Shown here piece after piece: positions 11,819 to 37,197 of a stretch of 37,197 nucleotides of DNA. Within the stretch, counting starts at the first letter, position 1. Each line of letters begins with the position of its first letter. The stretch is from IMG/VR virus record IMGVR_UViG_3300044640_002945, positions 1 through 37,197 of that record, one strand, 5' to 3'. Source of the stretch: a virus. The position numbers and the translations under genes are program-made. The notes below the pieces were generated by a model, which saw only the letters and a program-made list of their open reading frames with translations, was not told the origin of the DNA and did not search any database.

Positions 11819-11862
11819 TTTTTGCCACTTTTAGGTCAAAAAAGTTTTTTTTAAAAAAAATA

Positions 11863-13094: not shown

Positions 13095-13136
13095 TGACCT
13101 GGACAGGATTCGAACCTGTGACCTACTGCTTAGAAG
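13095..13136 (-). other. attP core: 3' part of a tRNA-Arg(UCU) gene
   Basis: The minus strand reads exactly as the 3' 42 nt of a tRNA: anticodon loop CTTCTAA (anticodon TCT), stem GCAGT, variable loop AGGTC, T stem ACAGG, T loop TTCGAAT, CCTGT, acceptor strand CCAGGTC and discriminator A. T-arm pairing is perfect. The base pairs needed for the 5' anticodon strand (ACTGC) are absent upstream, so this is not a whole tRNA. Tyrosine integrases often use identity from the anticodon loop to the tRNA 3' end, so this is the attachment core. The host attB should be a tRNA-Arg(UCU) gene with 5' acceptor GACCTGG. Confidence 0.9.
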
Positions 13137-13199: not shown

Positions 13200-13625
13200 T
13201 TATACGATATAATCATCTTTGTTAACTTTATTGTTAACTTTTGCAATTGATAACGTTTCATAATCTACGGGCGATTCCGCTACATTTATAGCTGGGTGCA
13301 TCATAAATTCTTTTTGATAAATACGTTCAATCATTACATACATTTTATCCATTTTAGTTTCTTCGGTCATTTTTTCAGCAGAAAAATTAACCTCTTTGCG
13401 AATCCCTGTAAATACATAATTCATATCAATATTAAATAAATTGACATAAATATCCAATCTATGCAAATCGGGACCAGTTTGTCCATTTAGTAAACGGTTT
13501 ACAGAGGTGCGTGTTACGCCCAGCATCTCTCCAATTTCATTTTGGTTTTTATGATTGTTTTTCATATAAATTTTGAGTTCATCTCTTAGTCTTTCCAACC
13601 ATTTAGAATCTTTTTCCTTTTTCAT
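13200..13625 (-). CDS. HTH-type lysogeny repressor (cI-like)
   Basis: 141 residues. Residues about 16-68 form an XRE-family helix-turn-helix (NQNEIGEMLGVTRTSVNRLL is the core, with an additional helix pair to about 75). The C-terminal half is charged and helical and lacks the Ser-Lys LexA/UmuD autoprotease motif, so RecA-triggered self-cleavage is not indicated. It is divergent from the early operon, with operator-like repeats in the shared intergenic region, and is on the same strand as the integrase. Its last codons overlap a pair of putative integrase arm sites. Likely keeps the early and perhaps other phage promoters off in the lysogen. Confidence 0.85.
   Translation of the reverse strand: MKKEKDSKWLERLRDELKIYMKNNHKNQNEIGEMLGVTRTSVNRLLNGQTGPDLHRLDIYVNLFNIDMNYVFTGIRKEVNFSAEKMTEETKMDKMYVMIERIYQKEFMMHPAINVAESPVDYETLSIAKVNNKVNKDDYIV
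13221..13244. promoter_or_regulatory. Putative integrase arm-type sites, repressor side
   Basis: GTTAACTTTATT (13221) and GTTAACTTTTGC (13233) form a 12-bp-spaced direct repeat inside the last codons of the repressor gene. The pair mirrors the motif and spacing of the pair at 13028-13052 on the other side of the att core. Because it also encodes the protein repeat KVNNKVNK, chance or coding repetition is the alternative. Confidence 0.4.
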
Positions 13626-13661: not shown

Positions 13662-13762
13662 GCAACTAATCGTGTACATTTGAAACACGTTGCGTTATAT
13701 TTGCATCGTATTTGGAACAAAAGTGAACACAATGTGCGCTTTTTCTGATACAAAAGTAAACA
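13662..13762. promoter_or_regulatory. Divergent immunity control region (promoters and operators)
   Basis: The region contains a nested inverted repeat (GCAAC, CGTGT at 13662-13675; ACACG, GTTGC at 13685-13693), a rightward -7 box TATATTTG (13696-13703), and two direct repeats ACAAAAGTGAACA (13717) and ACAAAAGTAAACA (13750) 33 bp apart, about three helical turns. On the minus strand CAAAAGTA at 13751-13758 reads TACTTTTG, a -7 box for the repressor gene. The -33 elements are poor for both promoters. The layout fits repressor operators that overlap the repressor's own promoter and block rightward early transcription. Confidence 0.65.
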
Positions 13763-13777: not shown

Positions 13778-14002
13778 ATGGTAATTAACTACGAAATCGC
13801 ACCCATTAAAATTCCAAAAGGCTTTATGACCGTATTGGTAAAAAGAACAAAATTGAGCCGAAGCACCATTAATCGAATCGCTAAGGCTGAAACCCACAGC
13901 ATTAGTAATCGACAAATTATTAAAGCCGAAATTGATTTTATAAATAAAGCTTTAGCCGAAAATCCAACTATTACAATTGAGCAATTAATAAACCTAAACT
14001 AA
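13778..14002 (+). CDS. Small HTH-like early protein (Cro/excisionase position)
   Basis: 74 residues, first gene rightward of the immunity region. The middle (VKRTKLSRSTINRIAKAETHSI) looks like a helix-turn-helix with 'LSRSTINRIAKAE' as the recognition segment. Position divergent from the repressor is that of a Cro-like antagonist or an excisionase/activator. The ATG follows 'taaacacatg' without a Shine-Dalgarno site, as is usual here. Function beyond DNA binding is inference. Confidence 0.6.
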   Translation: MVINYEIAPIKIPKGFMTVLVKRTKLSRSTINRIAKAETHSISNRQIIKAEIDFINKALAENPTITIEQLINLN

Positions 14003-14012
14003 AAATAAAATT

Positions 14013-14222
14013 ATGAAACATTTATCTACTGATTTACAAATCAAGATTCTTACAAATGAAATTTTAAGAACCGAAGAGCACATCGAAAAATGCAAAAAAT
14101 CGCCAATTCAATTTTTTAAAACCCAAGTGGACCAATTAAGAGAACAGGCGCACCGACTAAGACAAGAATTGACTAATCTACAAAATCAAGAAGAATGTCA
14201 GAATTTAGTGAGGTTGCTTTAA
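14013..14222 (+). CDS. Small coiled-coil early protein
   Basis: 69 residues, entirely helical and charged, with heptad-like Leu/Ile spacing (LRTEEHIEKCKKSPIQFF; DQLREQAHRLRQELTNL). No known family recognised. It starts ten bases after the previous gene and overlaps the next small gene by 28 bases in another frame, so it belongs to the early operon. Confidence 0.6.
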   Translation: MKHLSTDLQIKILTNEILRTEEHIEKCKKSPIQFFKTQVDQLREQAHRLRQELTNLQNQEECQNLVRLL

Positions 14223-14554: not shown

Positions 14555-14845
14555 ATGTATTTAATATTTCTTAGAAACGCAACCCTACCAAAGTCGACAA
14601 TAGACAAAGCGATGGGTATCGCGATAAAAAAAGACAATCGAAAAGTGATAATGAAATTTGAGCTTCAACCATTTTTAGACCGTGTAAAAAAACTTGCAGA
14701 ACATTACAAGGAAGAAATGCCCGACGAAATGCCAGTATTCATAAAACATAAAACCATTGGCGATTCCGAAGATATTAATGTGACAGGATTACATTATGAT
14801 ATTACACTTTATAAATTGAATCCAGACCCTGCAACTTTAAGATAA
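14555..14845 (+). CDS. Conserved-looking early protein of 96 residues
   Basis: The protein ends one base before the primase-helicase gene, so the two are probably coupled. The first 30 residues (MYLIFLRNATLPKSTIDKAM) may be leader-like extension, since a second in-frame ATG precedes MKFELQPFLDRVKKLAEHYK; this shorter form is about 65 residues and would start near 14649. The C-terminal part (EDINVTGLHYDITLYKLNP) is beta-rich. No family recognised; association with replication is suggested only by position. Confidence 0.55.
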   Translation: MYLIFLRNATLPKSTIDKAMGIAIKKDNRKVIMKFELQPFLDRVKKLAEHYKEEMPDEMPVFIKHKTIGDSEDINVTGLHYDITLYKLNPDPATLR

Positions 14846-14846
14846 T

Positions 14847-17800
14847 ATGATCGCACAGCAAAGTATTCAGAAAATATATAATTTGCCATTGCTCGATATT
14901 ATCCAGCAGTTTGTAGATCTTAAAAAATCGGGCGCAAATTATGTCGGCAGAAGTCCATTTGTCGATGAAAAAACTCCAAGCTTTACCGTTTCCACTTCTA
15001 AGAATATTTGGAAATGTTTTAGCAGCCACAACGGAGGCAATAATGTGATTTCATTCATTATGGCCTTAAAAAAATGCACCTTTGTAGAAGCCGTTAAATT
15101 AGCAGCTCAACTATCTAACATTAATCTTGAATTTGATGAATCCGAAAAATCAATTAAATATCAAGAAAAAGTATCAAAACAAGAACCCCTTAAGTCCGCA
15201 CTTATTGCAATCAAAGATTGGTATATCGAGCAATTTAATTCGCTGGATATAAATAGTCCGGTACGTGCCGAAATCAATAAAAGACAATACACCAACGAAC
15301 AAATTGAAGCCTTGCAAATTGGTTACGCACCCAAAGGACAATCCTTTCAAGAATTTTTGCTTAAAAATAAATTAACCGAAGCCGCCAAACAAATCGGGAT
15401 CATTACTCAAGAAAATAAATTACTTTTTTACGACCGATTAATGTACCCAATTTTAGATAAATGGAATAACTGCATCGGATTTGCAGGAAGAGCCATTGGA
15501 GAGCAAAAGCCAAAATGGATTAATCCACCAAAATCAATTATGTATGACAAAGAATTTGATTTTTACGGAATCCATATCGCGCGCCAAGATTTAGCAATCA
15601 AACAAAAAGCTATTTTAGTAGAAGGTTATAACGACTGCATCGCATTACAATCCGCAGGTTATTCCAATACATTAGCAATTAACAGCACCAGCATTACCGA
15701 GGCGCATTTTACAACCTTAAACCGTTTGAATATCAAACACCTTGTTTTAGCATTTGACAATGACGATGCAGGCATCAAGTCCATTCTTAAATTCATTCCT
15801 ATTATTATAGAAAAAGGATTGAGCGTTTCGGTAGCACTTCCTAAAGTTGAAAAAGATTGGGACGAAGAATTTAGAATGTTAGACCGCATTAAAAAGCAAA
15901 AACAAATCATTGAAATTGACGGCTTCGAGTATTTATTAAACAAAAAACTCGCACCTGGTATCGGCACCGAAAAAGCCATTGAACAAATCAATAAAGATAT
16001 TAATAAACTCAATATCGAAATTGACAAATTGAATCAAAAAAAACACCTCCAGCAGAATATTGTCAGCCAAATTAACCAAGACGAAGAGCCTAAAGAATTC
16101 CAAAAAATCAATAATGCCATTAAAAAGATTGATGTAGAAATTAATGCTTTTTCACGCACCATTGATGAAAAAATGACTAATCTTCAATCGTTGCAAGCGG
16201 ACTTATCTGATTTTTCGCAGCAAAAAAATACTATCCAAAAAGAGCTTTATAAAATTGCTATATCTTGCCCAGAGCCCAACCGACAAAATCAATATTTAGC
16301 AAAATTACAAAGCACCACCAAAATCGACAAGAAAGTAATAGCAAACTGGCAAACAGACCTTTTTAAGAATCCTACTTCCTCGAATACGGATTTTAAAAAG
16401 TACAATTTGCCCGATGGCTGTACCGCTAAGATTGAAGAAGTTGCCGAAATAATTGACAAGTACGGATTCTTTATGTCCGACAATCAAATTTGGAAAGCAA
16501 TAAACGACACCGCTCCAATTTTTTTTAGCTCCATAGCCAATTTCGAAATTGAAATCCTAAACCATATGAACGACGACAAATTTCCGAAGAAATTAGTTAG
16601 AATGCGGAATGTTTTAGGAAATCAAAGGATTTTCGATACCGATAGTGCCAATTTTAATACGCTCGACAAATTCCGTAATATGAGCACCGCCCACGGTAAC
16701 TTTAAATTTAGAGGCAGAGCCGACGACCTCGATATGCTTACGAACTATTTGTTTGATCAAATGGGAAGCGGACGAAAAGTAGATTCGCTCGGGTGGCAAG
16801 TAGATGGATTTTGGGCGTGGAACAACGGCATCACAATTCCTATTATGGACAATTTCCCTAGCAACCACCCAAAACATATCAATATTGACGAAAACGGAAT
16901 GTTTATCTACAATTCCGAAACGTTTTATCTACCTAGTGCCAACTTAATTTATCGAAATAATCCGATAATGTACACCAGCCAAAAAAAGCTTATGATTCGT
17001 GGCGCAAACGATTTGTCGTTGTACTTATTCGTTCAGCAGATGATTAACGTACACCGAGGACACTCCATGTTTGCGTTTCTATTTGCCACAGCTTCGTTAT
17101 TTCAAGATGTGATTCAATCCGAAATCCGAAACTTTCCATTAATCTTATTCTACGGCGCACCCTCTTCGGGAAAAGACCAATTGAGCAAATGCGTTCGTTC
17201 CCTTTTTGGCGATACGCAAGCACCTATCAACTTAGCAAGTGGAATTTCCACCGCCAAAGCACACATTAGAGAATTAGCACAATTTCAAAACACCATTTCG
17301 GAGTTTTCCGAATATAAAAATGGCGATTCTAAAATCGATGAAATGCTAAAAGGGATTTGGGACAGAAACGGATATAAAAGAGGCACGATAGAAAGCCGTA
17401 ACTCCGTGGAAGAAATACCAGTATTGAGTTCGGTAATCCTTACAGGAAATGAATATCCAGTAAACGATGCCTTAATAACAAGATTGATTTGGTGCGAATT
17501 TTCAAAAAATGCCTTTTCACTAGAAGAAAAAAAGGAATATGAGATATTGGACGATATGATCAAAAAAGGCATTAGTCATTTTACCGTAGAACTTTTGCAG
17601 TTGCGCCAAGATTTTGTGAATAAATTCAAACACAAATTTCGGTTTTTTCAATCAGAGCTCAAAGAAAACAAAAAATTGGCACATATCACCATTGACCGAA
17701 TTATCCAAAATTTATCGGTTTTGGGTGCCACGTATCAAATATTACTCGAAGCGAATTACTCGCTACCTTTTAATATGAATGATTTAATGGAGCACATCAT

Positions 17801-18263
17801 CATCACAACCGAAAATCAAATGCGTAAACTCAATACTTCAAGCCCTGCCGCTAAATTTTGGGATTTATTTGTCTATGGAATGCGCCACGCTTCGCAATAT
17901 CAAATCAAGCTTGATCTTGATTATCGTATTGACGGAAACGAACTTAAATTTAACTGGACACAGGTCTATGGAATTATACAAAAAGAATGGTGGTCACGTT
18001 ACCAAGAATCTTGCCCAGCCAAAACCAATCTTAAAGAGCAATTAACCAAACAAGGATATTTTATTAACGATAAAAGAGCCGAAAGGTTTGGAGAAAAAAG
18101 CACTTCCGTAGTGATGTTTGATATAAACCAATTACCAAACAAAGCCGATTTGCTCAACGCCCACGAATGGCAAATGGCAAGAGACAAAGATAACTTTAGC
18201 AGTTTTACAAACACCAGCCCCAATTCCACCACCGAAATTTCAGACAATCCTTTTTTTGACTAA
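14847..18263 (+). CDS. Toprim primase fused to P-loop helicase-like ATPase
   Basis: 1138 residues. Residues 30-75 align with the DnaG zinc-binding domain (GRSPFVDEKTPSFTVS then KCFSSHNGGNNVISFIM), but of the usual C-x2-H...C-x2-C ligands only Cys57 is kept, so zinc binding is doubtful. Residues 194-218 (FYDRLMYPILDKWNNCIGFA) match the DnaG core, and a Toprim domain follows with Glu259 in VEGYND and DNDDAG at 304-309. Residues about 365-485 are a long coiled coil. The C-terminal half has a Walker A GAPSSGKD at 770-777 and a downstream 'SSVILTGNEYP' plus Arg-containing 'LITRLIW', as in primase-helicases of superfamily 3/DUF927 type. It should make primers and unwind DNA at the phage origin. It is the replication core of the early operon. 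Confidence 0.88.
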   Translation: MIAQQSIQKIYNLPLLDIIQQFVDLKKSGANYVGRSPFVDEKTPSFTVSTSKNIWKCFSSHNGGNNVISFIMALKKCTFVEAVKLAAQLSNINLEFDESEKSIKYQEKVSKQEPLKSALIAIKDWYIEQFNSLDINSPVRAEINKRQYTNEQIEALQIGYAPKGQSFQEFLLKNKLTEAAKQIGIITQENKLLFYDRLMYPILDKWNNCIGFAGRAIGEQKPKWINPPKSIMYDKEFDFYGIHIARQDLAIKQKAILVEGYNDCIALQSAGYSNTLAINSTSITEAHFTTLNRLNIKHLVLAFDNDDAGIKSILKFIPIIIEKGLSVSVALPKVEKDWDEEFRMLDRIKKQKQIIEIDGFEYLLNKKLAPGIGTEKAIEQINKDINKLNIEIDKLNQKKHLQQNIVSQINQDEEPKEFQKINNAIKKIDVEINAFSRTIDEKMTNLQSLQADLSDFSQQKNTIQKELYKIAISCPEPNRQNQYLAKLQSTTKIDKKVIANWQTDLFKNPTSSNTDFKKYNLPDGCTAKIEEVAEIIDKYGFFMSDNQIWKAINDTAPIFFSSIANFEIEILNHMNDDKFPKKLVRMRNVLGNQRIFDTDSANFNTLDKFRNMSTAHGNFKFRGRADDLDMLTNYLFDQMGSGRKVDSLGWQVDGFWAWNNGITIPIMDNFPSNHPKHINIDENGMFIYNSETFYLPSANLIYRNNPIMYTSQKKLMIRGANDLSLYLFVQQMINVHRGHSMFAFLFATASLFQDVIQSEIRNFPLILFYGAPSSGKDQLSKCVRSLFGDTQAPINLASGISTAKAHIRELAQFQNTISEFSEYKNGDSKIDEMLKGIWDRNGYKRGTIESRNSVEEIPVLSSVILTGNEYPVNDALITRLIWCEFSKNAFSLEEKKEYEILDDMIKKGISHFTVELLQLRQDFVNKFKHKFRFFQSELKENKKLAHITIDRIIQNLSVLGATYQILLEANYSLPFNMNDLMEHIIITTENQMRKLNTSSPAAKFWDLFVYGMRHASQYQIKLDLDYRIDGNELKFNWTQVYGIIQKEWWSRYQESCPAKTNLKEQLTKQGYFINDKRAERFGEKSTSVVMFDINQLPNKADLLNAHEWQMARDKDNFSSFTNTSPNSTTEISDNPFFD

Positions 18264-20349: not shown

Positions 20350-20385
20350 CCCTCTAAACATTTACGTATAGAGGGTCTTTTTTTT
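20350..20385 (+). terminator. Terminator of the early operon
   Basis: CCCTCTA (20350-20356) pairs with TAGAGGG (20369-20375), followed by TCTTTTTTTT. It separates the early operon from the head genes. The stretch 20276-20424 holds only this terminator and the next promoter. Confidence 0.88.
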
Positions 20386-20400
20386 GTTTTGGCGCAAATC

Positions 20401-20408
20401 TATTTTTG
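20401..20408 (+). promoter_or_regulatory. Promoter -7 box for head genes
   Basis: TATTTTTG matches the Bacteroidota TAnnTTTG box. It lies just after the terminator and 17 bases upstream of the protease ATG, so the leader would be very short. The upstream TTTG elements are 9-14 bp away, shorter than the usual 17-23, so an activator may be needed. Confidence 0.5.
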
Positions 20409-20424
20409 TCTATAAAAAATAGTG

Positions 20425-28169: not shown

Positions 28170-29144
28170 ATGCTAATCGAAACCACGCAAGAACTTCAAT
28201 TGTATGTACCTACCAGTTCGGCATTTAAGGAAGCCACGCTGACGCCCGAGCTTAAAACCTCGACGATGGAACTCGAACAAAGAGTTCCAAAAGAATTTTT
28301 AACCCATATCGAATCCTTGAAAGGTGCGGATAATTTGGGTGAGTTAGAAGATATTCACTATCACTTTGCTTCCTTTATTGGCAATATTACGATGTATCGT
28401 ATGATGCCTAAATTGTATAATTCCATTACAAGTGCAGGCATACGCACACACGTAACCCAAGAAACCGAACGCGCTACAAAATGGAGCTACGAAGACCAAA
28501 GAAACGCGTATTTGCTTGATGCTACCGTTCATTTAGAAAATGGTTTGAGTAAATTCTACAATTTACCGATGGGTACGTTGATGTCATTTATGAGCCAAGA
28601 CGAAATAGTAAATCACAAAAAACGCTTATTCAAAAATATTGATGATTGGAAAAGTGCGTTGAGTACGCGATGTAGTGTTTTAGTAATTCAAGAATTGAAT
28701 AATTATGTAGCCGACTGCGAGGAGAGTTATATTTTAAATCGATTGGATCGTGGGTATTGGGAAACGACAAAACAAGACCCGACACAGGAGTTTCAAAAAA
28801 CATTGATCAACTACGGCAGAAGATTAATTGCTTCGGCGGCACTTTTGCGCGGTTTGGGATTATTAACACTTTCTTTGAGTGCCGATGGTTTACGAATGAC
28901 TAGTTTTTATTATAACGAAACGCTCCACGGCGCACCGCTTGCGATGGATTTTATTATGAATTTAAAACGAAGCTTAGAAACAAACGTTACGCATTATCAA
29001 GGGATTTTTGACAAATATCTTTTGCAAAACGCGAGTAATATCCCTGGAATGACCAGTTCGGATTTTTATATACAAAGTCAAGAAAATTCGAGCGTTTTGG
29101 GAGGCTATAACAACGAAAACGCAAAAAGCACCTTTTTTATATAA
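28170..29144 (+). CDS. Head-tail adaptor candidate (DUF6712-like)
   Basis: 324 residues, mostly helical, with 'FASFIGNITMYRMMPKLYNS' and 'KWSYEDQRNAYLLDATVHLE' (about residues 68-125), as in the DUF6712 proteins found in Bacteroidota phage head modules. It ends the head/packaging unit just before a strong terminator. The role, probably a connector or minor head protein, is inferred from position. Confidence 0.55.
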   Translation: MLIETTQELQLYVPTSSAFKEATLTPELKTSTMELEQRVPKEFLTHIESLKGADNLGELEDIHYHFASFIGNITMYRMMPKLYNSITSAGIRTHVTQETERATKWSYEDQRNAYLLDATVHLENGLSKFYNLPMGTLMSFMSQDEIVNHKKRLFKNIDDWKSALSTRCSVLVIQELNNYVADCEESYILNRLDRGYWETTKQDPTQEFQKTLINYGRRLIASAALLRGLGLLTLSLSADGLRMTSFYYNETLHGAPLAMDFIMNLKRSLETNVTHYQGIFDKYLLQNASNIPGMTSSDFYIQSQENSSVLGGYNNENAKSTFFI

Positions 29145-29172
29145 CCCATATTTTTCTTTATATTTTTTCGGG

Positions 29173-29208
29173 AACCGCATTTTGCTTCGGCAAGTGCGGT
29201 TTTTTTTA
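29173..29208 (+). terminator. Terminator of the head/packaging unit
   Basis: AACCGCA...TTGC-TTCG-GCAA...TGCGGTT forms a stem with small internal loop and a UUCG tetraloop, followed by eight T. It separates the head unit from the accessory island. Confidence 0.92.
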
Positions 29209-29216
29209 TACTTTTG
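29209..29216 (+). promoter_or_regulatory. Promoter for accessory gene 29242
   Basis: TACTTTTG matches TAnnTTTG immediately after the terminator and 26 bases before the start codon. A possible TTTG lies 24 bp upstream, inside the terminator stem. The terminator-promoter pair is the usual sign of an independently expressed moron. Confidence 0.6.
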
Positions 29217-29241
29217 TGTTTCACTTTTAAATTAAAACATT

Positions 29242-29766
29242 ATGGAAGATTCAATGAAAAAACTATTTTTTGGTATTATTTGCCTTTTAGGATTATTTAC
29301 AGTAGGTTTTGGGATTATGGAATTTCTAAACGAACCTAAAAAAGAAAAGCCAGTAGTTATAAATAAAGCTAAAATATTAAATGAAATACACAATAATCCG
29401 AAACCAACTAGACCAAGACCTATGTATAACGAAGAGCAATTTTTTGAGAATTTAGACCCTAGTCAAATTTCAAGCTTAGAACCAGAGCAAAAATTTAAAT
29501 ATCGAATGTATATTTTAAACGCTCCTTTAGAAAAATACAATAAACTTGATGAGATTCAACAGGAAATGGTTATTTATCAATTAGGGGGCATTTTATATAA
29601 AGAAAAATGGGAAAATGAGTTTACCGATGATCAAAAAAAACTTTTTGAAACACAAATCATGAGTTGTATTAAACCAACAGCTGATGATTATCAATTGTCA
29701 AAGACTATGAAATTGAATGAGGTAGCAGTATCTTGTTATATGGTATTAAAATCTAGAAGATTTTAA
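29242..29766 (+). CDS. Membrane-anchored accessory protein (174 residues)
   Basis: Residues 7-29 form a single hydrophobic segment (LFFGIICLLGLFTVGFGIM), so the protein is anchored or exported with the rest outside the cytoplasm. The mature part is polar, Pro/Lys-rich then helical, with two Cys near the C-terminus (Cys152 and Cys166) that could form a disulfide. A possible second start lies at MKKL (29254). It has its own promoter between the head genes and the next accessory operon. Lysogenic conversion or superinfection exclusion is a plausible inference; no family recognised. Confidence 0.5.
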   Translation: MEDSMKKLFFGIICLLGLFTVGFGIMEFLNEPKKEKPVVINKAKILNEIHNNPKPTRPRPMYNEEQFFENLDPSQISSLEPEQKFKYRMYILNAPLEKYNKLDEIQQEMVIYQLGGILYKEKWENEFTDDQKKLFETQIMSCIKPTADDYQLSKTMKLNEVAVSCYMVLKSRRF

Positions 29767-29796
29767 AATAAAATAATAACATTATTTATTTATCTT

Positions 29797-29804
29797 TACT
29801 TTTG
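29797..29804 (+). promoter_or_regulatory. Promoter for the two-gene membrane module
   Basis: TACTTTTG (a TAnnTTTG box) lies 25 bases upstream of the 78-residue gene, in an AT-only intergenic gap with no other gene. No good -33 element is visible. It implies expression separate from the late genes, including possibly in the lysogen. Confidence 0.55.
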
Positions 29805-29828
29805 CAGTAATTTATAACTTATATTATT

Positions 29829-30065
29829 ATGAGTATCGTAGGAATTTTTAAAGACAAATTGTATATAACATTAGGTTCTATTCAAAAATATATAAATTGT
29901 ATTAGCAATTTAATGATAAAGTCTGATGATGAAAATTTAAAAATTTTATTAAAAAATCCAAAAGATAAGGCTCAATTTCAGAAAGCAATAGATGAAATAT
30001 TAAGAGATAATAAAAAAGAAAAAGAAATCGACATCAATGGTAGCACCATTGTAATATCTATGTAA
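29829..30065 (+). CDS. Small cytosolic protein, first gene of the membrane module
   Basis: 78 residues, helical, no signal or membrane segment. It contains one Cys (KYINCISNLM), a charged C-terminal half (FQKAIDEILRDNKKEKEIDI) and a short beta tail (GSTIVISM). Its stop is 12 bases before the large membrane protein. The pairing of a small soluble protein with a membrane effector resembles many phage-defence and toxin-antitoxin pairs, but no known family is recognised. Confidence 0.5.
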   Translation: MSIVGIFKDKLYITLGSIQKYINCISNLMIKSDDENLKILLKNPKDKAQFQKAIDEILRDNKKEKEIDINGSTIVISM

Positions 30066-30077
30066 GATTTAATTAAT

Positions 30078-31283
30078 ATGAATATTAATATTGCTTTTAA
30101 TACTATTATTTATATTATGATATTTTTATTTCCTGGACTAATTTTTAGGAGAGCATTTTTTTCAGGAAAATTTTCTAATAATTTTAATTCAGGAAATGCG
30201 TTTGAAAGATTAATATGGAATATATTGTTTAGTATTATTTCAATTTATGTTTTTTATATTTTATTCAAGTATTTAGACGTTTCAAATCATAAAATTTTTA
30301 GCTACAAATTACAAAAAGACCAAATATTTGAAACGTTCAAGTATTTATACGAAAATAAATTCCCTGTGTTGTTTTTGTCTGAAGATTTTATTAAAATATC
30401 ATTAAGTTGGCTATTTTTTATATACTTTTTTTCAGGATTAATCGGATTTGTTATAAATAAAATTATTATAATTATTGGATTAGAAAAATCATTCTCTGTT
30501 TTGAAATTTCAGAACAATTGGGAATACTTAATAAATTCAAATGGTAAAAATAATTCAAGCCATAATTTCTTACATTTGTATTACACTAAAGTTGATGTAA
30601 AAACTAAAAATCAAGAATTATTTACTGGAAAATTGCATGAAATTATTTATGACAAAGATAATAAAATTGAAGCTATTACAATTGAAGATGCTTATAAATT
30701 TTACAAATGCTCTTTAATTGATGATAAAGAAAAAATTGAATATATTAAAAGTAGTATTAATAAAGATGATCCTTATATAATAGAGCATCAACAAACAAAT
30801 TCAGAATACATTTACAGAAAAAAAATAAAAGGGAATTTGTTTTCTATTTTTATAAATGATATTGAGAACATATCAATGAGTTATATTAAAATTGCTAATT
30901 TTTATCAAAATCTTCAAATAAATTTAAAAAAACTTTTTACAATTTCTTTTGTATTGATAATTGCATTTTGTTTTTCATATATTATATGGGATTTTAATGT
31001 TTTTTTATTTGATAGTTTTAAAAGAAGAGTGGTCTTTTGTATTACTACTCCTTTTGTTTATTCTATTTTTAGTATGTTCTTAGTTTTTGCTTCAAATGTT
31101 AAACTATTTAGAATTAATTTAAAAAAATATTTAAAAGATTTGTTTGATGTATTTTTTATACTATTGCTTTTTGCAACACCATATTTATATGCTTTTAGTA
31201 TTCTTTCTTTTAAATGTACTATTTTTGCAATTTTAATAGTTTTCATAATATGTGGATTTATATTTAATAGAGATAAAAATTAA
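30078..31283 (+). CDS. Multi-pass membrane protein with internal cytosolic domain (DUF6338-like)
   Basis: 401 residues. The N-terminal 130 residues contain about three membrane helices, with 'FLFPGLIFRRAFFSGKFSNN' as a marked motif. Residues about 155-255 form a soluble domain that includes 'VDVKTKNQELFTGKLHEIIY', a beta-rich pattern reminiscent of the SH3-like part of DUF6338 proteins. About four more helices follow at 285-400. The gene is AT-rich even for this genome and sits in an accessory island with its own promoter. A membrane effector fed by a soluble sensor domain is a common abortive-infection or exclusion design; that role is inferred. Family match is from memory of the motif and is not certain. 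Confidence 0.5.
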   Translation: MNINIAFNTIIYIMIFLFPGLIFRRAFFSGKFSNNFNSGNAFERLIWNILFSIISIYVFYILFKYLDVSNHKIFSYKLQKDQIFETFKYLYENKFPVLFLSEDFIKISLSWLFFIYFFSGLIGFVINKIIIIIGLEKSFSVLKFQNNWEYLINSNGKNNSSHNFLHLYYTKVDVKTKNQELFTGKLHEIIYDKDNKIEAITIEDAYKFYKCSLIDDKEKIEYIKSSINKDDPYIIEHQQTNSEYIYRKKIKGNLFSIFINDIENISMSYIKIANFYQNLQINLKKLFTISFVLIIAFCFSYIIWDFNVFLFDSFKRRVVFCITTPFVYSIFSMFLVFASNVKLFRINLKKYLKDLFDVFFILLLFATPYLYAFSILSFKCTIFAILIVFIICGFIFNRDKN

Positions 31284-31286
31284 CCT

Positions 31287-31406
31287 ATGGCAAAGAACAA
31301 ATTAACAATCCCCGAAATTCATAAAAGCGCACTTAGTGCAAAAAAAGCAATTGAAAGAATTCAATTATTTGCAAAATTAGTTCAAAAATCAAACGACAAA
31401 AAATAA
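31287..31406 (+). CDS. Tiny basic protein (39 residues)
   Basis: The frame begins MAKNKLTIPEIHKSALSAKK three bases after the membrane protein stop and ends with LVQKSNDKK. It is helical and strongly basic. Being so closely coupled to the membrane gene, it could be a third member of the module. Its base composition is less AT-extreme than the membrane gene. No family recognised. Confidence 0.45.
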   Translation: MAKNKLTIPEIHKSALSAKKAIERIQLFAKLVQKSNDKK

Positions 31407-31434
31407 TTATGTGCGCAATGTGATACAAATGTAT

Positions 31435-31442
31435 TATATTTG
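31435..31442 (+). promoter_or_regulatory. Promoter P1 before the small RNA
   Basis: TATATTTG is a perfect TAnnTTTG box. It lies at the end of ACAAATGTATTATATTTGT (31425-31443), an inverted repeat (ACAAAT/ATTTGT), and 18 of 19 bases match the corresponding stretch at P2. Upstream ATGTGCGC (31409) plus TGATACAAA (31421) mirrors the immunity operator region (13732, 13746), suggesting shared control. Confidence 0.6.
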
Positions 31443-31448
31443 TACTCT

Positions 31449-31535
31449 CTTTTACTGATTGTGCTCAAACACCCAGTAGTTAAATGTTTTATTTTTAGTT
31501 TACTAGAAAAGCCTTGATTTATTCAAGGCTTTTTT
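31449..31535 (+). ncRNA. Candidate small RNA (about 87 nt)
   Basis: A promoter box and a terminator lie about 65 bases apart with no open reading frame of note between them, while a second promoter follows to serve the downstream genes. The predicted transcript has a TACTG...CAGTA stem around a loop (31452-31477) and ends in an 11-bp terminator stem. The exact 5' end is estimated from the -7 box. It may act as an antisense or regulatory RNA or as an attenuated leader; its target cannot be read from the sequence. Confidence 0.5.
31507..31535 (+). terminator. Terminator of the small RNA
   Basis: AAAAGCCTTGA and TCAAGGCTTTT form a perfect 11-bp stem with a TTTAT loop, extended by further T. It closes the P1 transcript before P2. 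Confidence 0.9.
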
Positions 31536-31556
31536 AGTGCATTTTATTTTTTAGTG

Positions 31557-31587
31557 TTGCACGTTGTGCACAAAAGTATTATATTTG
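31557..31587 (+). promoter_or_regulatory. Promoter P2 for fibre, lysis and tail genes
   Basis: TTG (31557-31559) is 20 bp upstream of TATATTTG (31580-31587), the consensus Bacteroidota spacing and the best promoter of the window. The spacer holds an inverted repeat TGCAC-GTT-GTGCA (31558-31570), an operator-like site, then ACAAAAGTA. The start codon at 31608 is only 21 bases past the box. No other terminator is seen until 11350, so this could drive about 17 kb of late genes. Confidence 0.75.
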
Positions 31588-31607
31588 TGGCGCAAAATGT
31601 TACACTT

Positions 31608-31871
31608 ATGATTGCAACGCCACACGATATACTATCTCCAAGCGAATTTGCTTTTAAACCTGCGGTTTTTGAGGAGGATAAAACATATCAAGTTACTTGT
31701 TTGGACGCATCGGGATTTATTTTATTTATTAGTGATGAATTATTGTCTATTAAAAAACACAAAGACCGCGGACAAATTGTGGAGTTTCTGTATGACGAAG
31801 AGGAGTTTAGAGCGTTTTATGTAGCTTCTTTTGAGCCCGAAAATTTAAAATTTGTAATTGATGAGCGTTAA
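31608..31871 (+). CDS. First protein of the fibre module (87 residues)
   Basis: 87 residues from the ATG just after promoter P2 (an upstream TTG at 31554 would lie within the promoter and is rejected). Mixed alpha/beta, acidic, with 'TYQVTCLDASGFILFISDEL'. It overlaps the next gene by 11 bases. It may be a small baseplate or fibre-assembly protein. No family recognised. Confidence 0.5.
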   Translation: MIATPHDILSPSEFAFKPAVFEEDKTYQVTCLDASGFILFISDELLSIKKHKDRGQIVEFLYDEEEFRAFYVASFEPENLKFVIDER

Positions 31872-32199
31872 GAATATTCAAGTAGCCAAAACATATCCGA
31901 TTATACGCCAGGAGGGCGATACTTCGATGCTTGAATTTCACGTTCCTGCTGATATATTATTAACAGGCTTTGAAGCTCGTTTTGGTGTTTTTAAGAAAAA
32001 TGGCGACCCGCTTTTTGTGAAAAATGGATCTATAAGCGGGCAAATAATATATTTTGAGATTGATGCGGTAGACACCTTACATAAGGTAGGTACGCATTTA
32101 TGGGAATTGGAAATAAGAAAATACATTCCAAGAGATGAAGTATATACCATAGGCAAAGGCGATTTTGAAATTCATAAACAACTATTAAAAAACATATGA
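31861..32199 (+). CDS. BppU-like baseplate protein
   Basis: 112 residues from ATG (an in-frame TTG one codon earlier is unlikely). The beta-rich pattern 'ADILLTGFEARFGVFKKNGD...' with 'THLWELEIRK' and 'VYTIGKGDFEIHKQ' near the end is typical of the N-terminal domain of BppU-type baseplate proteins, which anchor receptor-binding modules. It overlaps its upstream neighbour and is coupled to the next gene by a four-base overlap. Probably the platform on which the following fibre proteins assemble. Confidence 0.6.
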   Translation: MSVKNIQVAKTYPIIRQEGDTSMLEFHVPADILLTGFEARFGVFKKNGDPLFVKNGSISGQIIYFEIDAVDTLHKVGTHLWELEIRKYIPRDEVYTIGKGDFEIHKQLLKNI

Positions 32200-32426
32200 G
32201 CGTTCAAACGATTGTTTTAGTAGGCGGTTATCATGTGTCAATTAATGACCCTTACGTATTACAAATCAAAACTTCGGGTCCTATAGGTCCCGAAGGGAAA
32301 AGCGCATATATGGTGGCGGTGCAAAATGGGTTTAAAGGAACCGTACAGGAGTGGTTGGATAGTTTGAAACCACAAATTAGCGATGTAGATTATTTAGCAC
32401 ATTACAACTTAGCAAAAATTACATAA
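32196..32426 (+). CDS. Collagen-like fibre linker protein
   Basis: 76 residues. A short beta stretch leads into 'GPIGPEGKSAYMVAVQNGFK' and 'GTVQEWLDSLK', the usual transition from a Gly-Pro repeat to a helical 'GksAYeiAv.nGf.GteaeWl.slkg' cap in phage fibres. Its C-terminus, 'DVDYLAHYNLAK', resembles the end of the 196-residue protein encoded next. The start overlaps the previous stop by four bases. Confidence 0.65.
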   Translation: MSVQTIVLVGGYHVSINDPYVLQIKTSGPIGPEGKSAYMVAVQNGFKGTVQEWLDSLKPQISDVDYLAHYNLAKIT

Positions 32427-32458
32427 ATTATTTAATAACAAAAAAAAACAAAACAATC

Positions 32459-33049
32459 ATGACATTAGAACAAAGACTCAACGCAGTATTCCAACAAATT
32501 GGAGATGACGTACAAGCATTATTGGCACAGGACGGGAACCTTGCTAATTTATCAACCACAGCCAAAGGTTCATTAGTAGCAGCTATCAATGAAGTTTTAA
32601 CGGTAGCCCAGCAAGCAGGACAAACCGCAACAGGCTTAATTGATGATACGGCTACAACCAGCACAACCAAGGTATGGTCAATTAGTAAACTGACCAGTGA
32701 ATTAGCTGCTTTAAAAAGCGACATTTTGGGTGGTGTGCCTGCAACGGCTTTTGATACCATCAAAGAAATTGCAGATTATATTAATTCCGATCAAACTTTA
32801 GGCACACAGCTTGTAGATGGGCTTTCAAAACGAGTTCGTTTTGATGCGGCGCAAACGCTGGATGCTACAGAGCAAGCGCAGGCTAGAGATAATATTGGTG
32901 CAGCAAGTACAACATTAGTCAATATGATTAATACGGATATGAATTTTTTCAATAGTCAAACAAACACAAGAATTGATAATTTAGAAGCTGCTTTAGGGAC
33001 TATTGATGTAAATTATTTATCTGTTTACAATACAGCTAAAACGACTTAA
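32459..33049 (+). CDS. Tail-fibre-like protein
   Basis: 196 residues. It begins MTLEQRLNAVFQQIGDDVQA, has Thr/Ala-rich repeats (GLIDDTATTSTTKVWSISKL), then 'FDAAQTLDATEQAQARDNIG', a motif common in phage tail fibres. It ends 'DVNYLSVYNTAK'. Both ends are shared with its neighbours: the start with the gene at 33052, the end with the gene at 32196. Likely part of the receptor-binding apparatus. Confidence 0.65.
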   Translation: MTLEQRLNAVFQQIGDDVQALLAQDGNLANLSTTAKGSLVAAINEVLTVAQQAGQTATGLIDDTATTSTTKVWSISKLTSELAALKSDILGGVPATAFDTIKEIADYINSDQTLGTQLVDGLSKRVRFDAAQTLDATEQAQARDNIGAASTTLVNMINTDMNFFNSQTNTRIDNLEAALGTIDVNYLSVYNTAKTT

Positions 33050-33051
33050 AA

Positions 33052-33342
33052 ATGACACTACAGCAACGTTTAACATCTGCCTTTCAAGGAATAGGTCAAG
33101 ATATTAAAAGCATTTTAACTCGTGTTACAAATTTGGAAAATGCCTCTAATAGTGGAGGCATTTCTGAATTTGTTGATTTAGGACAAAATGCAGCACCTGT
33201 ACCATTTTATATTCACAAAAAAACCGTCGACAGTAAGGATGTAAGATATTTTATTATGGGATATCCTGTATTAATACAATATAATGAATACTTTTTAGAA
33301 TATCAATCTAGCGACGGAATTAAAAAAACCACTTTAAAATAA
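33052..33342 (+). CDS. Short fibre paralogue (96 residues)
   Basis: The first 30 residues (MTLQQRLTSAFQGIGQDIKS) are a paralogue of the start of the previous fibre protein. The remainder is beta-rich (DVRYFIMGYPVLIQYNEYFL). The start is two bases after the previous stop. It may be a trimmed fibre tip or adaptor built on the same docking segment. Confidence 0.6.
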   Translation: MTLQQRLTSAFQGIGQDIKSILTRVTNLENASNSGGISEFVDLGQNAAPVPFYIHKKTVDSKDVRYFIMGYPVLIQYNEYFLEYQSSDGIKKTTLK

Positions 33343-33348
33343 AAAATT

Positions 33349-34068
33349 ATGTCACAAATTATAAGCTTAATTGATGCTACAGGACAGCAGTATAATATAG
33401 AGTTTCATCAAAATAGTAATAATGGCACTTTAATACCAGTGTCTATATTAAGAGATCAAGACGGACAAATAGTAAATGTTGCCTCGGTAGAAAAGCAAAA
33501 TGATATACTAGGTCAGCTTAACTCAATTCGGGAAACAGCTTCTAATTCCCTTTTGGAATTGGCTAAATTAAATCAAGAACCTTCAAGTTTAGATTTTCAT
33601 AGTGTATCTTTTGTCGTTATTCCTACAACATTAACGACGGGGCTAAATTATTTTGTATTAAGGAATCCATCTACAACTAAAAAAATTAAAATAAGAAGAA
33701 TTGTAGCGGATGCTTTTTTTGCAGGAACGGCGGCAGCAAGTAGAAGCACTTATGCTTTAAAAAAGTTTGCGGGAGTTACTGCAACAACAGGAAATACCAT
33801 TCCTGTAGCAAAAAGAGATAGTTTAAGTCCAAATACAATTGCAGATGTCAAAACATTACCTACAGGATTAGCTTTGACTGGAGCGATAGATCACAATAAT
33901 ATTTCACATATTTCGCATCCTAATCAATTAAGTACAACTATCTGTAAAGATTGGACTTTTGAGAATCCAATTGTATTAAACACAAATGATGCTATTGCGT
34001 TACAATCCGAAGGGGCAATTGTTGCAGGATCATCTGTTGTTTTAACCATTCAATTTTACGAAATATGA
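33349..34068 (+). CDS. Receptor-binding/fibre-tip candidate
   Basis: 239 residues, beta-rich and Asn/Thr/Ser-rich, with a helical segment near 50-80 (KQNDILGQLNSIRETASNSL) and a C-terminal 150 residues that look like a globular virion domain (NPSTTKKIKIRRIVADAFFA; IVAGSSVVLTIQFYEI). It follows the fibre paralogues and overlaps the next gene by four bases. Position at the end of the fibre run suggests the distal, host-contacting part; not proven. Confidence 0.55.
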   Translation: MSQIISLIDATGQQYNIEFHQNSNNGTLIPVSILRDQDGQIVNVASVEKQNDILGQLNSIRETASNSLLELAKLNQEPSSLDFHSVSFVVIPTTLTTGLNYFVLRNPSTTKKIKIRRIVADAFFAGTAAASRSTYALKKFAGVTATTGNTIPVAKRDSLSPNTIADVKTLPTGLALTGAIDHNNISHISHPNQLSTTICKDWTFENPIVLNTNDAIALQSEGAIVAGSSVVLTIQFYEI

Positions 34069-34337
34069 AAATTATAGATATTATTCCAGAAGAAATACTT
34101 TACTTAAAATATGGTAAAGTTACTATAAATCAAGTTTTGATTTGTATTGTATATGATGATTTGCATACAAAATTAACGGTAAGCGTCAAATTGACAAATG
34201 ATTTTGATCAGCAAATTTTTGAAGAAGGTTTTATAGATATTTCAAATGAGGATTATAGTAATCTTGGAATTAACGGAAACGTAAATGACGATATCGTAGA
34301 TTTTGTATTGAAGTATTTATCATTAAGTAAAAAATAA
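34065..34337 (+). CDS. Small acidic protein of the fibre module
   Basis: 90 residues, coupled by overlap to the fibre-tip candidate. Acidic and mixed alpha/beta (MKIIDIIPEEILYLKYGKVT; INGNVNDDIVDFVLKYLSLS). Its tight coupling suggests a partner of the fibre protein, such as an assembly chaperone or subunit. No family recognised. Confidence 0.5.
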   Translation: MKIIDIIPEEILYLKYGKVTINQVLICIVYDDLHTKLTVSVKLTNDFDQQIFEEGFIDISNEDYSNLGINGNVNDDIVDFVLKYLSLSKK

Positions 34338-34341
34338 GATC

Positions 34342-34842
34342 ATGATCAAATACCTATTCTCATTAATTGTTGGAGTTATTATTGGTTATGCGTTTAGCGA
34401 TTTGGGTTCGGATTACGAAAAGAACATCGTAGAGGAGCACCAAACGGCAGTAAAGCCCATAAATGACAAACTTGACACCTTGATACCAAAACAAATCATT
34501 GCTAAAGCCAATTTAACCGATAGCTATAACGCATTGGAGCAATGGAAAAAAAGAAGTATTGATACTATCGAAAAAGAAGTATTGGTAATCGATACTATTT
34601 CGATAATAGATAGTGCTTCATTTTATTATGAAGCGGCTTTAACAGATTGCATGGAAGTGGTAAAAGTGCAAGATAGTATGATTTATGCGTATCAAACCAA
34701 GGATAGCATTAGTCAAGCTTCGATATTGGCATTGGCTAAAGCGCCAAAGAAAAAACGTAAAACCTTTATAAAACACATAGGACACGGCTTAATAATTATT
34801 ATTGGGGGGATTTTTATTAAAAAACAAATTGAAAATTTATAA
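34342..34842 (+). CDS. Spanin candidate (membrane-spanning lysis protein)
   Basis: 166 residues. An N-terminal membrane helix (YLFSLIVGVIIGYAF) is followed by a long charged helical region (EEHQTAVKPINDKLDTLIPK to about 120), then a basic stretch (KAPKKKRKTF) and a second hydrophobic segment (GLIIIIGGIFI). Hydrophobic ends with a periplasmic helical middle fit a fused spanin, though no lipobox is seen and a two-component i-spanin is an alternative. It starts the lysis cassette; its last codons (IENL) and downstream DNA are repeated after the next gene. Confidence 0.5.
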   Translation: MIKYLFSLIVGVIIGYAFSDLGSDYEKNIVEEHQTAVKPINDKLDTLIPKQIIAKANLTDSYNALEQWKKRSIDTIEKEVLVIDTISIIDSASFYYEAALTDCMEVVKVQDSMIYAYQTKDSISQASILALAKAPKKKRKTFIKHIGHGLIIIIGGIFIKKQIENL

Positions 34843-34862
34843 CTAAAACCATATTATACAAA
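34828..34862 (+). repeat. Gene-boundary repeat, copy 1
   Basis: The 35 bases covering the last codons (IENL), stop and leader before the holin gene resemble the 36 bases after it (35127-35162); the first 22 bases differ at one position. The pattern ATTGAAAA(T/C)TTATAACTAAAAC is followed by ATTATACAA. It suggests duplication or recombination at the boundary of lysis genes. Confidence 0.7.
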
Positions 34863-35141
34863 ATGAAAACATCAGACTACATCGTATTGGCATTGGCGGG
34901 ATTATTGGTAACGATTTACCGCATATTAAACAACAAAATGGAACGAATTATTCCTAAAAACATTGCAAAAGAAACAATTTTATCCGTAATTATTTCAGTT
35001 ATAATTATTCCTGCGGCGATGGAATATTGGAATTTGAGCCTAAAGCTCGGCATCGGATTAACAGGAATTGTGAATCTATTTGTAAAAGTGATTTTGCAAA
35101 AATTGGAAAAGAAAGTAGAAGAAAAAATTGAAAACTTATAA
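34863..35141 (+). CDS. Holin
   Basis: 92 residues. Two to three membrane helices are predicted: MKTSDYIVLALAGLLVTIYR, ETILSVIISVIIIPAAMEYW region, and LGIGLTGIVNLFVKVILQ. The charged C-terminal tail (KLEKKVEEKIENL) is typical of holins. It lies between the spanin candidate and the lysozyme and would release the endolysin by permeabilising the membrane. Its last codons and downstream leader repeat those of its upstream neighbour. Confidence 0.75.
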   Translation: MKTSDYIVLALAGLLVTIYRILNNKMERIIPKNIAKETILSVIISVIIIPAAMEYWNLSLKLGIGLTGIVNLFVKVILQKLEKKVEEKIENL

Positions 35142-35162
35142 CTAAAACTAAATTATACAACT
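35127..35162 (+). repeat. Gene-boundary repeat, copy 2
   Basis: Second copy of the boundary element, covering the last codons of the holin and the leader of the next gene. See the copy at 34828-34862. Confidence 0.7.
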
Positions 35163-35438
35163 ATGTATGGCGTTATTTTAAACATTATTGCGTATTTATT
35201 AATGGCAGTTGGGGCTTATAAAGCCTTTAGCTGGAGCCATAAATACGGCACTCGAATTACAATGATTGTAAATTATTTTTTGATGTTCTGGAACATCTTT
35301 ATGGTGGTTTATCTATCCAGCAATTTTAAAGATATTTTGAGCCAACCGCTCAATGTAATGCTTAATTTTTATGAAAGCATTACCAATATTTTAATTGCAT
35401 TGTATTTATTATCATTTAATCTCAAAAAAGTAAAATAA
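35163..35438 (+). CDS. Second small membrane protein of the lysis cassette
   Basis: 91 residues with about three membrane helices (MYGVILNIIAYLLMAVGAYK; TMIVNYFLMFWNIFMVVYLS; NILIALYLLSFNL). The gene ends one base before the lysozyme start. A second holin or an antiholin regulating lysis timing is the natural reading from its position, but the sequence shows no specific motif. Confidence 0.6.
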   Translation: MYGVILNIIAYLLMAVGAYKAFSWSHKYGTRITMIVNYFLMFWNIFMVVYLSSNFKDILSQPLNVMLNFYESITNILIALYLLSFNLKKVK

Positions 35439-35439
35439 G

Positions 35440-35892
35440 ATGACTTTAAACAGCAACGGAATTGCATTAATGCATGAATATGAAGGTTTGCGCCTCGAAG
35501 CCTATTTGTGTCCTGCAAAAGTACCTACAATTGGCTACGGAAACACGTTTTATGAAAACGGCACAAAAGTGAAAATGGGCGACAAAATAACCAAAGCACG
35601 CGCCGAGGAACTTTTTATCAATATTACGAATCGTGTTTTTGCCGACCCAATACGCAAAATGTTTCCTAAAGGGAATTTAAGACCCAATCAATTTAGCGCA
35701 CTGGTTTGTTTTGCCTATAATGTGGGTGTGGGTAATTTGCAGAAATCAACCTTGCTCATAAAAGCATTAAGCAATCCAAACGACCCAACAATTCGTAATG
35801 AATTTATGAAATGGAATCGAGCAGGAGGAAAAGAATTGCCAGGATTAACACGAAGACGAAAAGCCGAAGCAGATTTATATTTTAAAGCATAG
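35440..35892 (+). CDS. Endolysin, T4-type lysozyme (GH24)
   Basis: 150 residues. It has the catalytic region 'EYEGLRLEAYLCPAKVPTIG' with Glu15, Cys24 and Thr30, the E-x8-(D/C)-x5-T pattern of phage lysozymes (Cys in place of Asp), then 'GYGNTFYENG', 'NQFSALVCFAYNVGVGNLQK' and 'LPGLTRRRKAEADLY' at the end. No signal peptide, so release depends on the holin. It cleaves peptidoglycan between MurNAc and GlcNAc. Full length for the family. Confidence 0.93.
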   Translation: MTLNSNGIALMHEYEGLRLEAYLCPAKVPTIGYGNTFYENGTKVKMGDKITKARAEELFINITNRVFADPIRKMFPKGNLRPNQFSALVCFAYNVGVGNLQKSTLLIKALSNPNDPTIRNEFMKWNRAGGKELPGLTRRRKAEADLYFKA

Positions 35893-36342
35893 ATGATTTT
35901 AATGAATTGCAACGTTGAAAATACCATTTTTTTACCCGAATATATTTATTCGTTTATTAATAAACGAATTGGGAATGTGATTGATTTATCCGACCCATTG
36001 TTTAGCGCAAATCACGAGTTGAGAGATTTGCGCAAACAAATTTTAGGTGCGGTTTCGGTAAAATTAAGCGACAAAAGACGAAATGAAATCAAGGGGAAAA
36101 ATGTCAAACCAACGACGATTATACTCAATTCAAGAATATTAAAGTTTCATAATAACTTGATCAATACGATTATTTTCAAATGGTTTAAACAGGAGTTTCT
36201 TTTTTGGATTTTGTATAGCAAAAAAGAAAAGATACGAGCTCGCATTTATGAATTTATGAATGTATATCAAATTAACGAAATACATTATATTAGTTTAAAA
36301 AAAATATACTACAAGCAAAAAGAGAAATATGTACTACAGTAA
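35893..36342 (+). CDS. Protein of 149 residues between lysis and tail genes
   Basis: Starts immediately after the lysozyme stop. Basic, with many Lys/Ile/Asn residues and a helical middle (DKRRNEIKGKNVKPTTIILN) and aromatic C-terminal part (QEFLFWILYSKKEKIRARIY). The last 14 bases overlap the next tail gene. A MetLeuMet start at residue 4 is a possible alternative. No family recognised; it may be a tail accessory protein. Confidence 0.5.
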   Translation: MILMNCNVENTIFLPEYIYSFINKRIGNVIDLSDPLFSANHELRDLRKQILGAVSVKLSDKRRNEIKGKNVKPTTIILNSRILKFHNNLINTIIFKWFKQEFLFWILYSKKEKIRARIYEFMNVYQINEIHYISLKKIYYKQKEKYVLQ

Positions 36343-36820
36343 GATTATTGAATATTTTGAGAACTTGGCAAAAAGCCACGAAGCGTTTTTGCATGATCAA
36401 GGCGGTAGAGAAACTTTTGTTGCTTCGGACATCGACGATTTTAAACGCTCCGAATTGTTTTTAAACAATGATTCTGCAATTATGATTGCCGACTATGAGC
36501 CGACAGGCATCGGCAGGGCGATAAGTTCATACATCATTAATGAAACAACCCCACACCAGCAAACGCTCCGTTTTAATCTTGCTATTTTTAAAGCTGCGGA
36601 AATAAACGAAACAGGGAACACCGCAAAAACGCTTGATGAATTATATGTTTTGGCATATGATATTATCAATATCATTTTAACGAATCGTTTTGAAAATTGC
36701 CACTATGTGGATTTGTTCAAGCATATGAACGAAGAGATTTTGATTTCGAGAACAGGAGCGATTGGCAATTCGCGACATATTGGATTGGTTTTATCTTTTA
36801 ACTTTAATTTTTACTTATAA
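36329..36820 (+). CDS. Tail terminator/completion candidate
   Basis: 163 residues, mixed alpha/beta. It overlaps its upstream neighbour by 14 bases and its stop (TAA) overlaps the start of the large tail protein (TAATG). The pattern of a helical start (SKIIEYFENLAKSHEAFLHD), central beta strands (TLRFNLAIFKAAEINET) and 'TGAIGNSRHIGLVLSFNFNF' is like tail-completion proteins, which have similar size, but this is context-led. Confidence 0.4.
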   Translation: MYYSKIIEYFENLAKSHEAFLHDQGGRETFVASDIDDFKRSELFLNNDSAIMIADYEPTGIGRAISSYIINETTPHQQTLRFNLAIFKAAEINETGNTAKTLDELYVLAYDIINIILTNRFENCHYVDLFKHMNEEILISRTGAIGNSRHIGLVLSFNFNFYL

Positions 36821-37197
36821 TGCTACAAATCAGCCAAAATTTAGAAACGTTTGTACCGAGCAATTATAGAGGCGACCTCAAACTAATTTATAACACGCAA
36901 TCGGCAAATCCGAACGGCATTGTACAGATGCGAAAAGCAAAAGTCCTTTGGAATTTTGATATTAATTTTTGGTTGACACAGCTTAGTACCGGCACGGTGG
37001 TTTTTAAATTTCAGAACCCGAGCAATACGCTTAATTTTGAATTTCATGTATCAACAACAGGCAATAACCGAAACGACCGTTATAATGTAGTCAATACACC
37101 TCCAGCAGGAACGCCTGGAACGCAATGGATTTATATTGATGATTTAGTGGCTTGTTTCATTGCAAGTCCTTTAGCCGAATATTACGATATACGTGCG
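36820..37197 (+). CDS. Large tail-tip/baseplate protein, 5' portion
   Basis: Start of the 776-residue tail protein that continues at base 128 of this window. It begins MLQISQNLETFVPSNYRGDL and is beta-rich. The ATG shares one base with the previous stop. The first 84 codons (36820-37071) are absent from the copy at the left end, so the true N-terminus is known only from here. Confidence 0.85.
   Translation, partial: MLQISQNLETFVPSNYRGDLKLIYNTQSANPNGIVQMRKAKVLWNFDINFWLTQLSTGTVVFKFQNPSNTLNFEFHVSTTGNNRNDRYNVVNTPPAGTPGTQWIYIDDLVACFIASPLAEYYDIRA
37071..37197. repeat. Terminal direct repeat, copy 2 (circle closure)
   Basis: Exact copy of the first 127 bases. It begins within the tail gene that starts at 36820 and continues in frame at the other end of the window. 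Confidence 0.95.

Follow-up and report, generated by a model that had tools for sequence, protein, structure and literature searches.

The DNA analysed here is a stretch of 37,197 nt from the virus record IMGVR_UViG_3300044640_002945, which we refer to as the window. Its ends repeat 127 bp, leaving a genome of 37,070 bp with a GC content of 34%. The genome, circular or circularly permuted, is that of a temperate Bacteroidota siphophage of flavobacteria-like hosts. The gene order is as follows:

77-11293, tail genes, including that of the tape-measure protein
11863-13023, minus strand, integrase
13200-13625, minus strand, HTH_3 phage repressor (PF01381, 2.6e-9)
13778-14002, plus strand, first early gene, in a Cro-like position, 74 aa
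14013-14222, plus strand, predicted target gene of the small RNA, 69 aa, coiled-coil-like, no family match
14847-18263, primase
from 20422, ClpP-like protease and capsid region
28170-29144, DUF6712
29145-31406, accessory (moron-like) block between head and tail operons, with its genes at 29242-31406
31608-31871, plus strand, first gene of the operon behind promoter P2, 87 aa, no family match

The product of 13200-13625 also matches PHROG families of transcriptional regulators and repressors (best 2.4e-10), while the protein of 13778-14002 gave only a weak match below the cut-off (HTH_26, E = 0.13). Capsid and portal roles are assigned from gene order and relatives and are thus putative. Fibre, lysozyme/lysis and tail genes follow from 31608 onward. 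The accessory block has TAnnTTTG sites of its own at 29209 and 29797, is preceded by a terminator and encodes a 401-aa membrane-like protein for which our scans returned no relatives.

Two further regions were observed on either side of the integrase gene. A tRNA 3'-end fragment at 13102-13136 adjoins the gene and resembles tRNA-Arg with a TCT anticodon; of 395 Flavobacteriales genomes, 341 have matches to 33-50-nt pieces from its surroundings, and it is the probable attP core, with integration into that tRNA gene. The 569-nt noncoding region at 11294-11862 contains GTTTGCAA seven times or more, in the one orientation and the other (11618-11809), as well as a long hairpin near 11510-11550, and is possibly an origin, an integrase-arm site or a partition-like site.

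The phage has no close relatives in the data searched. In a TerL alignment covering 80 viral and 17 genomic loci, all identities lay between 26 and 31%, the nearest relatives being flavobacterial or other Bacteroidota phages or prophages and a Microcystis phage (at most 31%). The primase is 37-40% identical to those of Flavobacterium phages. Six proteins of the window were compared with IMG/VR without turning up a close relative, a blastn search of phages with a 7.8-kb query had zero matches, and family- and order-level genome samples yielded trace matches or none. The nearest relative found stood at about 31% in TerL, too distant for an analysis of covariation in the RNA or its pairing.

Between the accessory block and the tail operon lies a stretch of about 200 nt with the following features:

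31413-31422, minus strand, operator-like dyad at P1 (CACATTGCGC; CGCAATGTG on the plus strand, 31414-31422)
31425-31443, plus strand, P1 core, twin 19-mer ACAAATGTATTATATTTGT, with its -7 box TATATTTG at 31435-31442
31447 to about 31536, plus strand, putative small RNA of about 90 nt (5' hairpin, linker, terminator), its start placed from the -7 box
31452-31479, plus strand, 5' hairpin UUACUG..GUG-CUCAAA-CAC..CAGUAG, in both the MFE and the centroid structure
31474-31502, plus strand, antisense region of the RNA, CAGTAGTTAAATGTTTTATTTTTAGTTTA, from the 3' hairpin arm to the foot of the terminator
31501-31539, plus strand, intrinsic terminator with 17 pairs, a 5-nt loop and TTTTTT
31557-31559, plus strand, -33 TTG of P2, with a 20-nt spacer to TATATTTG
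31560-31568, plus strand, operator-like dyad at P2, CACGTTGTG, inside TGCAC-GTT-GTGCA (31558-31570)
31570-31588, plus strand, P2 core, twin 19-mer ACAAAAGTATTATATTTGT, with its -7 box TATATTTG at 31580-31587

A preliminary description of the locus had reported that P1 and P2 share the 19-mer ACAAA(T/A)GTATTATATTTGT, and this was confirmed: the two copies are identical at 18 of 19 positions and spaced by 145 nt. The next-best neighbour of the 19-mer on the plus strand of the genome has five mismatches. The -7 box of flavobacterial sigma-A is TAnnTTTG, located at -12 to -5 (PMC9723704), and TATATTTG matches it exactly in both copies. Since TAnnTTTG is common in the window (33 occurrences on the plus strand and 34 on the minus strand), the box alone proves little, and it is the likeness of P1 and P2 that carries the weight. 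Among TAnnTTTG pairs 60-400 nt apart in 300 Markov genomes, the best reached at most 16/19, against 18/19 here; pairs of at least 16/19 were found neither in 1.48 Mb of related phage loci nor in three shuffled controls. Strong sequence evidence thus points to twin sigma-A promoters, with transcription predicted from the -7 boxes to start near 31447 (P1) and 31592 (P2). P2, which had been taken to start the fibre, lysis and tail genes, is supported in that role, with a leader of 16 nt from the predicted start at 31592 to the ATG at 31608. At P1 the -33 TTG, expected about 19-21 nt upstream, is absent, and the predicted start region is pyrimidine-rich (CTCTTT), which suggests that P1 may be a weaker or factor-dependent promoter.

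The twin 19-mers are also near-palindromic, each presenting a TAnnTTTG box to the minus strand (for P1 at 31433-31426); minus-strand transcription from P2 would run antisense through the small RNA.

A dyad of the form CRCNNNGYG lies upstream of the -7 box in both promoters, its distance from the box being almost equal in the two: -33 to -25 in P1, where it reads CGC-AAT-GTG, and -32 to -24 in P2. Two further copies of this dyad lie in the control region from which the repressor gene and the first early gene diverge:

13686-13694, plus strand, immunity-region dyad 1, CACGTTGCG, adjoining the early -7 box TATATTTG at 13696-13703
13728-13736, plus strand, immunity-region dyad 2, CACAATGTG, at +10 to +18 of the predicted repressor start
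13758-13751, minus strand, repressor promoter box, TACTTTTG

Exact matches to CACRTTGYGY number four in the 37 kb, two in the immunity region and one each at P1 and P2, where a Markov model expects 0.45 genome-wide. A first operator test, which used every 10-mer that the regions have in common, was drowned in AT-rich seeds and gave no information, and it was replaced by an enumeration of dyads whose arms comprise three bases each (A, C, G, T, R or Y), with gaps of 0-8. In this enumeration, whose three-base-arm model was picked after the sites had been inspected, N is 18 for the present dyad, and not one of 1474 randomly drawn sets of three regions had a dyad of N up to 25 in common. With P1 and P2 held fixed, the immunity region was the best partner window in the genome.

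P1, P2 and the control region of the repressor and early genes therefore carry the same candidate operator, and these matches favour the earlier suggestion of a regulator common to both promoters. P1 and P2 probably answer to the immunity repressor or a Cro-like partner; the HTH_3 repressor (13200-13625) would be the obvious binder of the dyad. No repressor homologues close enough for a comparative test of the dyad were found. Alternatively, the repressor or Cro-like protein might activate P1, which is without a -33 TTG. An independent hint comes from the Cellulophaga phage Ingeline_1, a distant relative, in which a perfect 20-bp palindrome, TATACATAAATTTATGTATA, precedes two late genes (L130:4447-4466 and 32697-32716) and the nearest other match (16/20, 14781-14800) lies at the start of an HTH regulator gene. 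This palindrome has the look of a repressor operator, here placed before late genes, and the pattern suggests that control of late promoters through repressor-type sites may be a general feature.

A fifth dyad, CGCATTGCG, lies at 11505 in the noncoding region 11294-11862. Ahead of the protease/capsid operon (20385-20421) there is a promoter-like TATTTTTG (20401) without the dyad, so the head and tail operons may differ in control.

P1 had been described as driving only about 90 nt that end in a perfect terminator. The discrete short unit and its 17-pair terminator stand; the arms proved to be 94% complementary in a repeat search, so that the terminator is near-perfect but falls short of strictly perfect. 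It is the strongest of six terminator-like sites within 29000-37197 and the only one after the upstream genes at 29829-31406. A 97-nt RNA spanning 31449-31545 folds at -30.4 kcal/mol (z = -6.6), with the terminator supplying most of the energy. The linker between hairpin and terminator, 20-odd nt of AU-rich/U-rich sequence, is the only unstructured part of the RNA and is predicted to be single-stranded. The locus thus has the make-up of a short RNA gene with its own predicted promoter and intrinsic terminator. Rfam covariance models gave no hits at the gathering score, the weak matches lying far below it. A tiny GTG ORF of about 18 codons within the RNA was considered and dropped, as it had zero support.

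The single-stranded part of this RNA is complementary to the start of an early gene:

13995-14031, plus strand, target site, comprising the stop codon of 13778-14002 (14000-14002), the leader and the first codons of the 14013 gene

Nowhere does the genome hold a perfect complement of the RNA longer than the 16 nt at 13995-14010, just before the ATG of 14013. Over its antisense region the RNA reads CAGTAG-T-TAAATGTTT-TATTTTTAGTTTA, and the reverse complement of the target site reads CAGTAG-A-TAAATGTTT-CATAATTT-TATTTTTAGTTTA. The two would pair at 28 of 29 positions, with one mismatch and one gap that loops out 8 nt of the target; for any placement of the gap this loop contains the ATG (14013-14015). 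The pairing takes up the whole exposed linker of the RNA. Co-folding gave -46.8 kcal/mol, against -24.5 and -5.3 kcal/mol for the two apart, a gain of about 17 kcal/mol.

By gapped pairing score, the 14013 start site reached 40 and the next start site 27. A score of 40 at start sites was obtained in 7 of 20,000 dinucleotide shuffles (3.5e-4) and by none of 12,178 real 56-mers of the same genome. Genome-wide and on both strands, it was reached by 0 of 1000 shuffles and by 4 of 700 real 56-mers, one of which overlaps the target site itself. In contrast to this ranking by alignment score, ranking by duplex energy was not significant, with 33% of shuffles as low. Scores of at least 40 also occurred when all intergenic pieces of four other phages were compared; those seen came from upstream regions repeated in direct orientation or from a single palindrome present more than once, not from antisense matches. 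From the controls with real sequence, we place the chance rate nearer 0.3% (a few per thousand) than 0.03%. AU-rich pairing is prone to chance, and the linker shares its AU-rich composition with the leaders of this phage. The match could also be a neutral inverted duplication. Even so weighed, there is extended predicted complementarity to an early mRNA at its translation start.

Upstream regions repeated between gene pairs, 43-46 nt long and of high identity, were seen in two relatives, phage 1H (L129:31148-31190) and Leef_1 (L127:10506), where they are probably duplicated regulatory leaders.

The dyad link to the immunity region and the antisense match go beyond the preliminary description, which had proposed that the RNA acts on late mRNAs or titrates a regulator. 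The pairing scores lend the former no support, late start sites scoring at most 27; for titration we found no positive evidence, and a decoy role of the operator DNA at P1 is possible. Instead, the stretch from P1 to the terminator may be the gene of a regulatory RNA of about 90 nt that is linked to the repressor and acts as an antisense brake on the early gene 14013, a reading to which we give roughly an even chance.

It could also be that the terminator merely ends the 29829-31406 unit, that P1 merely duplicates P2, by chance or as a spare, and that the RNA is a functionless by-product, with the P1 operator at most a DNA decoy. The region between 31283 and 31500 has no other terminator to serve that unit, and P1 is without its -33 element, as such a reading would have it. 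Set against it are the similarity of the twins, the equal placing of their shared dyad and the complementarity of the RNA to the early start site, and we regard it as unlikely.

The pR'-tR' region of lambda (6S RNA) consists of a promoter, a short RNA and a terminator just before the late genes, and the layout here, with promoter, short RNA, strong terminator and late operon on one strand, resembles it. P1 would then be the true late promoter of an attenuated leader, and an antiterminator would permit run-through into the tail/lysis genes. In contrast to lambda, a second promoter (P2, 31557-31588) lies between the terminator and the late genes and looks the stronger of the two (TTG-20-TATATTTG, short leader), so that read-through is not needed. 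Suboptimal folds show no antiterminator that breaks the terminator core, and no gene for a Q-like antiterminator was recognised among the proteins scanned, a subset of the ORFs. Together these points make an attenuated leader improbable.

That the RNA acts on host mRNAs, the 14013 match being fortuitous or secondary, would suit an AU-rich linker able to pair widely and has precedents in phage-encoded RNAs with host targets (24B_1 on sdhB, DicF on ftsZ; PMC12197685), yet the single long near-perfect match lies within the phage, and we hold this to be very improbable.

An antisense brake on gene 14013 would work as follows. In the lysogen, the immunity repressor (13200-13625) probably occupies the dyads. 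Good sequence evidence puts the same dyad at the twin promoters and at those of the early genes and the repressor, and joint repression of P1, P2 and the early promoter is probable. Upon induction all three would be freed together; P2 would then start the fibre/lysis/tail genes, while P1 would make the small RNA, whose 5' hairpin and terminator would hold the U-rich linker exposed. Moderate evidence suggests that the linker anneals to the 14013 leader and to the codons that open the gene, and a duplex on both sides of the ATG would block ribosome loading and lower translation. The hybrid might also expose the 14013 mRNA to RNase III. Turning on the late genes would thereby also yield an RNA that curbs the early gene just behind the cro-like gene, a brake built into the switch itself. 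The sequence elements and their statistics are what the analysis shows; from them we infer that the RNA is transcribed, that the repressor binds, that RNA and target pair in vivo, which way the effect goes and what gene 14013 does.

Short phage RNAs that pair with phage mRNA and lower its expression include the sar RNA of P22 (68/69 nt) and the OOP RNA of lambda (77 nt) (PMC12197685). Judged by sequence alone, the RNA described here would share with them its own promoter and terminator and a partner mRNA in the immunity/early circuit. While sar and OOP are transcribed from the strand opposite their targets, the present RNA (31447-31536) is encoded about 17.5 kb from its putative target (13995-14031) and in the same direction of transcription, i.e., in trans, and its predicted pairing is imperfect, with an 8-nt loop at the ATG. 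As it is not encoded opposite its target, we do not file it with OOP and sar. Mycobacteriophage L5 has stoperators, repressor operators outside the immunity region; similarly, operator-like sites of the immunity region recur here at distant promoters, though these are predicted operators and comprise just P1 and P2, plus the site at 11505. Independent small RNAs of Flavobacterium psychrophilum such as Rfp18 also combine a TAnnTTTG box, a structured short RNA and predicted mRNA pairing (PMC9723704). Those are host genes, and a check of sequence relation by way of Rfam gave no hit for the present RNA.

Regulatory RNAs of temperate phages are, to our knowledge, known mostly from enterobacterial phages and are mostly cis-antisense, and in the literature searched we found no RNA-based arm of a lysis-lysogeny switch in Bacteroidota phages. 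Our wider proposal is that the early operon of a Bacteroidota phage is under feedback from a trans-encoded antisense RNA, which the immunity repressor controls through an operator common to late and early promoters and which would form such an arm; we advance it tentatively, at somewhat less than an even chance. Because mRNAs of Bacteroidota hosts largely lack Shine-Dalgarno sequences, blocking the A-rich leader beside an ATG would be a natural way for an RNA to act. One 200-nt stretch thus yields a testable circuit in a little-studied phage group: an RNA encoded in the late region would target an early start site, while a second promoter, apparently under like control, would start the tail/lysis genes. 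If true, an RNA brake would couple late to early gene expression, with late genes directly repressor-controlled and early genes under RNA feedback in Bacteroidota phages.
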